Of a stretch of DNA of 36,207 nt, positions 23,433-26,628 are shown piece after piece. Position 1 is the first letter of the stretch. Each line of letters begins with the position of its first letter. The stretch is from Terriglobia bacterium. Its GTDB lineage: Bacteria > Acidobacteriota > Terriglobia > JAIQFV01. Below the pieces are notes generated by a model. That model was not told the DNA's origin. It worked only from the letters and a program-made list of their open reading frames with translations, and ran no database searches. Location of the stretch: contig JAIQFY010000052.1 in assembly GCA_020072965.1 (NCBI GenBank), forward strand, positions 1 through 36,207, given 5' to 3'. Made by a program: the position numbers and the translations under genes.

Positions 23433-24011
23433 TCAGTGCGAAGCGAAGTACTCAAATCGGCGGGGATACGTGATCTGGACCCCTTCAACTTGGGCCCAGG
23501 GCGTGAGCGTGTGAGGGTGAGTTTGACCTTTGCCCAGGATGTCTTCCACCCGGATACCTCGAACCACGAGGGCGTCCCCAATCAGGGAGCGGTGGCAGCG
23601 CCAGGGCAGAGCCTCCGCGCACATCACCGCGATCCGTTCCTGTTGAGCAAGGTCGATCAATTCCTCCAGGTTCTTGCGAAACTCGTCACTCTGCATGTAG
23701 TCGGCATACCCTCGAAAGCTGAGGTTCCGCCATCCGGTGTTAATCGAATCCTTATGGGGGTGCCGAAGGCCGCCCAATCCGGCTTTGTGCAGGTAGCCGA
23801 TCCTCGCAGCCTTCAACGCGGAAGCCAGTTCTTCGGCATTGAATTGAGGGTTGTGCCGGGAGCGCGGAATCGTCCTCACATCGACCAGGCGCCGCACATC
23901 CTGTCCCTCCAGAAGCTGGATGAGTTCTTCTACCGTCCGGGTGGAGTGGCCGATGGTCAGCACAACCCGGGGTTGTGTCGGTTGGCTTCTCCCTTTCATC
24001 CGATTTTCCAA
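23433..24011 (-). CDS. DUF488 family protein
   Basis: A 192-residue DUF488 protein. Motifs are VVLTIGHSTRTVEELIQLL (about 16-34), VDVRTIPRSRHNPQF (about 43-57), YADYMQSDEFRKNLEELIDL (about 101-120) and MCAEALPWRCHRSLIGDALV (about 129-148). The conserved Cys-Ala-Glu and Cys-His-Arg form what looks like an active site, but no reaction is known for the family. It is cytoplasmic. Start may be Met1 (24011) or Met5 (23999). The 276 bases between it and the cytidylate-kinase-like gene hold no clear gene. Confidence 0.85.
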   Translation of the reverse strand: MENRMKGRSQPTQPRVVLTIGHSTRTVEELIQLLEGQDVRRLVDVRTIPRSRHNPQFNAEELASALKAARIGYLHKAGLGGLRHPHKDSINTGWRNLSFRGYADYMQSDEFRKNLEELIDLAQQERIAVMCAEALPWRCHRSLIGDALVVRGIRVEDILGKGQTHPHTLTPWAQVEGVQITYPRRFEYFASH

Positions 24012-24062
24012 GAGGTCACGAGCCTGGTCACAAGTTCAGGGTTCAACGCGAGATCTGTCTCA

Positions 24063-24290
24063 CTACGCTCGACCTTGACCATGGGTCGTACGGTCAACCA
24101 AGAACCTTATTCTCAATCCACCGTGGCCCGAAGCGATTCTGGTCATGGAATGCATAATCTTGCGCTGGGCGGCGTACAACAGCCTCGGCATTTCCATGAC
24201 AATCAAAAGAAGGGCACATAGCAAGCAGAGACACAGTGCGAGAACGCCTAATAACATGATGTCGTTGAGAAGGTCATAGAAGATATACAT
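24063..24290 (-). CDS. Possible small single-helix membrane protein
   Basis: A short frame with one strong hydrophobic segment, LLGVLALCLCLLCALLLIVM, following MYIFYDLLNDIM and followed by a basic tail (RLLYAAQRKIMHSM). A start at 24290 gives about 75 residues. There is no convincing Shine-Dalgarno site and no family, and the frame could extend upstream. Listed because the hydrophobic run and the flanking charges are like those of real small membrane proteins. A chance open frame is a fair alternative. Confidence 0.3.
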   Translation of the reverse strand: MYIFYDLLNDIMLLGVLALCLCLLCALLLIVMEMPRLLYAAQRKIMHSMTRIASGHGGLRIRFLVDRTTHGQGRA

Positions 24291-24539
24291 GGCGCTACCC
24301 CATGAATTCTCCATCGGCTGAAGCATCGGGATGCAGCGGAGCCGGGAAGTGGGGTGAAATTTGCTCTTGCTTCTGAAAAAATGAGAAATCTGACCCCGCA
24401 CTTTTCCCGGTTCCTAACCACTTGTATCACCCACCATTTCAGATTCTGAATGGGCGACTTTCGTTGCCTGTGAGGAAGTACGGAAGCCAACCCGGCGAGG
24501 ATGGTCTCTTCTTTGAGGCTTCAACTTTGAAATCTAGGT

Positions 24540-25070
24540 TCATTGGACCCCTTTGAACCCTGCTAAGGCGAGGCAATAGCCCTCGCGCCTTGGCCAACCG
24601 CGTCGCTCCTCCTGAGACATTTTTATGCTGGGTCCCAGCGTGAGCTGCTCGGCGGTCGAAAAGGCGTGGCTACGAATGAGCAGGGTGCTGACCAAAGACG
24701 TGAGGCCGGAAGCGGCAAAAATCATGGAGAGAATCACGAATTGGTAGATAGCTGCATAGACGGGCTTCGCGCCCGAGAGCAACATTCCCATCATCAGGCC
24801 GGGGATCCAGACGATGCCAAGTGAACGCAGGGAATCGATGGCCGGGATCAGGCTTGCCTGGAGTGAAGACTGGACGTAGGGAGCCACGGTTTGCTTGGAG
24901 CCGGCTCCCAGGGCCAGTCCCGTCTCAATAAGCCCGACATTAGCCATCACATCTCCTCTTTCGACCTGAATGCTGATGTCTTCAACCACGTGCTTGCCGG
25001 AAACGACGCGGCTCAGATGCTTCGTCTCAAGGATCAAGGATTCCTTGCTCCTCTTGTCTTGCTCCATCAT
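24540..25070 (-). pseudogene. In-frame fetA-fetB deletion remnant
   Basis: A 176-residue frame with two pieces of different genes. Residues 1-42 look like the start of an ABC ATPase (SLILETKHLSRVVSGKHVVE, then DISIQVERGDVMA), broken off before the Walker A motif. Residues 43 to about 145 match the C-terminal half of a FetB/YbbM (UPF0014) membrane permease: VGLIETGLALGAGSKQTV, then PAIDSLRSLGIVWIPGLMMG, YAAIYQFVILSMIFAASGL and LVSTLLIRSHAF. FetA and FetB together export iron in E. coli. An internal deletion of most of fetA and the first half of fetB, at about 24935-24952, fits. ATP binding is lost, so iron export is not expected. Confidence 0.72.
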
Positions 25071-25095
25071 TTAGCCTTCGGTGAGAGTTGTTGTG

Positions 25096-25116
25096 GGGCA
25101 GGCGTCCTCGCCTGCC
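25096..25116. repeat. Short palindromic repeat
   Basis: GGCAGGCG/CGCCTGCC with loop tcct, followed by a T-rich stretch (cttttgtc). I recall phrases of this type (gcaggcgtcctcgcctgcc) as dispersed repeats in other genomes. On the plus strand it could also act as a terminator, but no plus-strand gene ends here. Confidence 0.5.
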
Positions 25117-25163
25117 TCTTTTGTCGGGAGGTGCGGAGACGGGACGCCTGCACCACCCCGTCT

Positions 25164-26309
25164 TCAGGCGTGGTCGTCGTCCAGCGCCTTAGAAGCTGAC
25201 GTCTGGCGGGCGGCGGTTGCCACTCTCCCCCAGGCGCTCGTCTTCCAGTTATCAACGGAGGTGGACGCAGCTCCCCAGGATGGAAGCGGCATAAGCAACC
25301 GCTCGGAAAATCCGAACAGGAACGGCTCGTACATCTCTCGTTGTCGCTTCAACGTTTCTTCGCCAGTCCGGGCCCGGCAAAGAGGCGCGCCCGCCGCGCC
25401 AAGGATCTCGCGCAGCTCGGCGAGGGTGGCCTCATTGAACCGGTCAATATATTCTGACTGGGGTGGAATACCGAGAACCTGTGCCAGATCCACCAGCGCA
25501 TGTCGCGAGATGGCAAAGGTCAATCCGGCCTGCCACTGGAGCACTCCCTCGGTATGGGCGATGAACAGGGCGCAGGTGTCCAGAATCGTTGCCAGGGCTA
25601 AGACCCAGGATTGGTTATTGTGTTGAGAACGAAAGTAGCACAAGACAGGAAACGAGATATGGCTCTCCATCAATTCCGCGGCCCACGACTCCCAGGCCCG
25701 CAGGTATTCCCCCAGCGCTTCCAGATTTTGTTGGCTGGCGTGTCTGCGCAAAAGTTCCTCGGCTGTCGGCGGGGAACCGGCTCGCGCATCCAGCAATGAA
25801 ATATTGACCTCTCGCCGTGAAAACGCCCCATAGAGCACGGGCAGGTAGGAAATCACGACCGCCAAAAAGCCGAAGCCGGTCCCGGCCTCTGCAACTGTCA
25901 CCACACGGGCCAGAGTGGTATGGGGTGTAACGTCTCCGAGGCCGAGCGTAAAAAAGGAGGTTCCGCTCATGTAAAGCTGGGTGCGAAAGGATTGAAGGCG
26001 ACTGGACCCCACAATCATCGAGCCGGCCGCCCATTGCAGCATCGCGAATCCGAGCACGAGCCCCAGTGCCCATACCCCAAAGAGCATTAAGACCGACAGG
26101 GGACCATAGACGCTGAGGAAATCTTCCCGGCCCTTCCCGGATTTCATCCGACGTGCGATCAGCAGCCAGGGAATTCCTGTGATTCGGTAAAACGTCCGGG
26201 TCAGCCGGAAGCGGCGAGTCACGCGCCGCGGCAGGATCATGGTTTCGAAGCAATCCCAGAGAATGGTGAGAAGCAGAAAGACGCCAAGAACGCCGATGAG
26301 CACAGCCAT
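25164..26309 (-). CDS. Two-TM potassium-channel-like protein with large C-terminal region
   Basis: A 381-residue membrane protein. A hydrophobic N-terminus (1-17) leads into a basic region, then two helices (about 70-95 and 136-160) flank a pore loop SGTSFFTLGLGDVTPHTTL (115-133). The filter reads TLGLGD rather than TVGYGD, so the central Tyr or Phe is replaced by Leu. A helical cytoplasmic part of about 210 residues follows (EELLRRHASQQNLEALGEYL, then FPVLCYFRSQHNNQSWVLAL). Probably a K+ or cation channel; ion choice is uncertain given the filter change. The ATG at 26309, nine bases after aaagga, is the best start; an ATG three codons upstream is possible. Confidence 0.75.
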   Translation of the reverse strand: MAVLIGVLGVFLLLTILWDCFETMILPRRVTRRFRLTRTFYRITGIPWLLIARRMKSGKGREDFLSVYGPLSVLMLFGVWALGLVLGFAMLQWAAGSMIVGSSRLQSFRTQLYMSGTSFFTLGLGDVTPHTTLARVVTVAEAGTGFGFLAVVISYLPVLYGAFSRREVNISLLDARAGSPPTAEELLRRHASQQNLEALGEYLRAWESWAAELMESHISFPVLCYFRSQHNNQSWVLALATILDTCALFIAHTEGVLQWQAGLTFAISRHALVDLAQVLGIPPQSEYIDRFNEATLAELREILGAAGAPLCRARTGEETLKRQREMYEPFLFGFSERLLMPLPSWGAASTSVDNWKTSAWGRVATAARQTSASKALDDDHA

Positions 26310-26628
26310 CGTCAACATTCCTTTCAGCTGCGGATCTGCCGGGCAGGTCCGCCATTCCTTGTTCCAGTGGCAAGCGGTTGGCGGGCACCTCGCTGGGTTA
26401 TGCCGCCCCTGGCGTACGCGCCCCCTTGCCGGGGCTGCCATATGTGACCCGAATGAGACTGGACGGTGCTCACTTTACTTGTAGAAGGAGTTGAAGGCAA
26501 GGGTCTAATGTGAGGGGAGCGGAGAGTGGAGGAATCGGTCCCTGGGAGCAGGCAATCTCTGCGACGCATGACGAATGAAGCATGCTTCTATTGATGATCC
26601 GGGCAAGACATCAACGATTGGAAAGCTA
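26310..26628. other. 319-base gap, nothing recognised
   Basis: This stretch lies upstream of the channel gene and downstream of the zinc-finger gene, both on the minus strand. I see no gene, clear promoter boxes or notable hairpins. The channel promoter is presumably in it. Confidence 0.45.

Follow-up and report, generated by a model that had tools for sequence, protein, structure and literature searches.

The open frame at 24540-25070 on the minus strand of the 36,207-nucleotide stretch of Terriglobia DNA analysed here (the window) is very probably a young pseudogene, left by a lineage-specific deletion of 1033 bp that fused the start of a fetA gene to the end of a fetB gene. It runs without interruption for 176 codons from ATG to stop. 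The first 43 or so residues align with the N-terminus of FetA from G001, the sole other genome of the window's genus among those compared, and from about residue 44 onwards the frame corresponds to G001 FetB. These alignments, together with Pfam, bear out the sequence-only reading made earlier of this DNA, according to which a fetA start and a fetB end share one frame. The ABC ATPase start is followed by some 110 residues that correspond to the final 46% of a UPF0014/FetB-type permease, and the permease piece is 86% identical to residues 144-266 of G001 FetB. In Pfam terms, UPF0014 (PF03649) is found at frame residues 40-137 (E 2.7e-29), where the match covers no more of the 242-position profile than positions 145-242, whereas the G001 relative spans positions 2-242. 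The parts of the frame are set out in Table 1.

Table 1. Components of the fused frame and their positions in the window.
Feature	Coordinates	Strand	Remarks
Retained 5' end of fetA-type ABC ATPase gene	24947..25070	-	About 41 codons, stopping short of Walker A; ungapped against G001 L010 from 8688
Deletion junction, imperfect repeat common to fetA and fetB	24932..24946	-	15-base overlap of the BLAST pieces; an offset of 1033 brings the two G001 copies, of fetA and of fetB, into register
Retained 3' 46% of fetB-type permease gene	24609..24946	-	PF03649 match; GAG at 24611-24609 in place of stop
Read-through tail past the lost fetB stop	24540..24608	-	Reaches the next in-frame TGA; G001 BLAST similarity stops at 24587

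A motif search for Walker A, the signature and Walker B found none of the three in the fusion product and all three in G001 FetA, and simple hydropathy indicates about two hydrophobic segments in the remnant against six or so in the intact permease. ABC transporter activity is impossible without the nucleotide-binding motifs and with half a permease. Because these motifs are gone and only about two hydrophobic segments are left, the remnant is, to judge from its sequence, unable to act as an ABC transporter.

The syntenic region of G001 (C12, locus L010, 8688-10179) contains fetA and fetB as an intact, overlapping pair. Its fetA, with an ATG at L010 8688, encodes 237 amino acids including GPSGSGKS, LSGG and VLLLDE, and overlaps the start of a fetB of 266 amino acids at L010 9379-10179. 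When the fusion is used as query its two halves match two places in G001 about 1 kb apart. BLAST alignment of the DNA yields two pieces: one spans 24932-26509 at 88.4% identity, the other 24587-24946 at 86.9%, and they have 15 window bases in common. Upstream, and again as far as fetB extends, similarity between the two genomes is unbroken. There is thus an intact orthologue, at the same place and in a close relative, as is looked for in a deletion pseudogene. Both window pieces derive from an operon of the kind that encodes a FetAB-type ABC transporter (UPF0014/PF03649 permease plus ABC_tran ATPase), complete and with overlapping genes in G001; the window copy differs in having neither the ATPase core nor the first half of the permease.

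The name 'FetAB', used in the earlier reading, holds at the level of the family and no further, because the intact G001 proteins themselves score below the NCBI cut-offs for both names. Against TIGR00245, the FetB equivalog (cut-off 410 bits), the window frame scores 60.6 and the intact G001 protein 120.2; against NF007601 for FetA (cut-off 292), G001 FetA scores 165.9. A comparison of G001 FetB with solved structures gave no match at E values up to 1. PMC6928379 describes FetAB of E. coli as an iron exporter, and iron export by the intact form is something that we infer from the family name.

Alignment of the pieces in register with G001 shows that 1033 bp are absent from the window. The intact G001 pair and the continuous flanks support the internal deletion proposed from the sequence, the size of which had been put slightly too high, at about 1.1 kb. 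In G001 the permease frame lies at +1 relative to the ATPase frame; the offset of 1033 is of the form 3n+1 and matches this difference, and the join is therefore in frame. Such an outcome is expected for about one in three random deletions. When the fetA and fetB copies of G001 are placed in register, they have TGGC in common, differ in two of the next three bases, and then again have TGTCGGGC in common. The window tracks fetA as far as TGGC and fetB beyond it, so that the crossover is most simply placed, on this alignment, in TGGC at 24946-24943.

Very probably the deletion ran from a short imperfect repeat in fetA, immediately ahead of Walker A, to its counterpart midway through fetB. The bulk of fetA was lost together with the first half of fetB, and the ends happened to meet in frame. 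Slippage or micro-homology joining would be the route, the deletion itself being evident from the comparison. As to the micro-homology that the sequence-only reading had proposed looking for, the junction repeat in G001 matches at 13 of 16 bases and is, jointly with one other place, the best repeat between fetA and fetB. It is not beyond chance, since a best repeat of at least 13 was reached in 165 of 200 shuffles of the genes by codon. Micro-homology is accordingly compatible with the junction but unproven: the repeat can account for the position of the deletion's end and is in itself unremarkable. No direct repeat was found within 24000-25200 of the window. Deletion pseudogenes and fusions formed between short direct repeats are a general class which the present case resembles in that neighbouring genes are joined by a deletion whose end lies in a short imperfect repeat, and from which it differs in that the join is in frame. 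Insertions and deletions at short direct repeats are mentioned, for example, for H. pylori (PMC3046158).

The same junction could be produced by an assembly artefact or a sequencing chimera, if the genome had an intact fetAB and the contig skipped 1033 bp. We consider this unlikely, and nothing in the analysis speaks positively for it. The exact bases in the shared repeat number only 4-8, which is too short to confuse an assembler, and a misjoin is improbable because the repeat is so short. In addition, the genome is rated 100% complete, and none of its 108 contigs carries the missing DNA elsewhere: within the 5.9-Mb assembly the lost stretch of about 1 kb matches nothing save its two edges at the junction. 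Nor does that assembly contain a second FetB, FetB matches being confined to the fusion locus. FetA paralogues are many in the window's genome, as expected for ABC ATPases, the best-scoring one having 41% identity.

When the window's own genome and those of 100 relatives, 101 in all, were searched with the fusion, matches were obtained in six, and over the whole length in its own genome only; a scan of the genome contigs with the fusion found no relative. Occurrence of the same short gene in relatives had been named at the outset as evidence against a deletion, and it was not seen in any of the other 100. At 22 other loci of the same phylum a FetB-like frame is present in every case, complete in length, and is accompanied by a FetA-like frame upstream on the same strand in 21. 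Because of these frames the short form is most simply taken, on the sequence comparison, as derived. Long stop-to-stop frames around FetB at five loci (L034, L035, L037, L038 and L039) were considered as further fusions and set aside: a separate fetA frame overlaps each, and they are read as spurious upstream openings.

FetB-type permeases are patchily distributed in the phylum, with matches in 23 of 396 genomes, the window's own included. Such patchiness would suit an ancestral short gene and later acquisition of the full operon by G001, a history whose probability we nevertheless put at virtually nil: the window keeps pieces of both genes in the place and order of the complete operon, and the other loci have FetB of complete length, 21 of the 22 with a fetA frame as well.

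Beyond the deletion, the remnant differs from fetB at its end. Where the G001 gene stops with TAG the window has GAG, and the frame continues for 23 codons to a TGA, an extension past the normal end of FetB seen in none of six aligned outgroup FetB proteins. The sequence-only reading, right in taking the retained 3' part as FetB, had overlooked that these last codons result from loss of the stop. On our preferred reading of recent deletion, the young remnant would then also have come to be without its normal stop codon.

Comparison with G001 gives a dN/dS ratio of 0.076 for the retained FetB piece (dN 0.037, dS 0.480) and of 0.128 for the retained FetA piece (dN 0.056, dS 0.437, over 39 codons), the four flanking genes having ratios of 0.089, 0.123, 0.089 and 0.166. 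Pairwise dN/dS thus shows no sign of relaxed constraint in the FetB piece. Since the ratio is as low as in the flanking genes, either the deletion happened recently or its product is being retained, the alternative already posed from the sequence and with both sides of which the low ratio agrees. Neutral evolution of the FetB piece along the entire window branch would predict about 57 amino-acid-changing substitutions, and neutrality over 20% of that branch about 11, with P(6 or fewer) = 0.06, equal branches being assumed. Under neutrality, and on the same assumption of equal branches, the age of the deletion would be at most roughly 20% of the window branch. Polarisation by outgroups of the nine FetB differences from G001 assigns four to the window and none to G001, with four ambiguous and one, in the junction, set aside. 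The window-derived residues are K, M, T and G, the last replacing an Arg common to all seven other proteins. These changes and the lost stop lean towards recent decay, short of proof, four to none being too few for significance.

The other side of the alternative, in which the expressed fusion is retained as a small membrane protein and has its own role, perhaps that of a regulator or partner for another ABC transporter, appears decidedly unlikely. It would account for the conserved upstream flank, the low dN/dS of the retained parts and the frame open from ATG to stop, but a recent deletion would leave an open frame anyway; moreover, conserved sites have changed and the stop is lost, the whole fusion is confined to one genome in 101, and the sole congener compared has the intact pair. 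That a single in-frame deletion made a new small membrane protein, in which an ABC ATPase leader is followed by half a permease and then a new tail, and which is now under purifying selection in the species, is very unlikely indeed. Were the product kept, a new gene would have been born from one deletion, and the evidence does not ask for that. The locus is most likely a case of ordinary gene loss and not a new gene. As such it shows one lineage losing an operon of metal-transporter type whose distribution is patchy, and carries a warning, since automatic annotation would report here a credible-looking member of the 'FetB family' for which transport is impossible.

Gene content downstream of fetB differs between the window species and G001. 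Among G001, G002 and G013, only G001 matched the flank at the frame end, over the neighbouring 24063-24236. The 350 bases by the frame end (24237-24590) were considered as a repeated or mobile element and rejected, being single-copy in their own genome. A short hydrophobic ORF, with no match in Pfam or NCBIfam, lies downstream of the fetB remnant at 24063-24401 on the minus strand, and its portion at 24063-24236 has a 77% DNA match adjoining fetB in G001. Further downstream in the window is a DUF488 gene (23433-24011), other genes being found there in G001.
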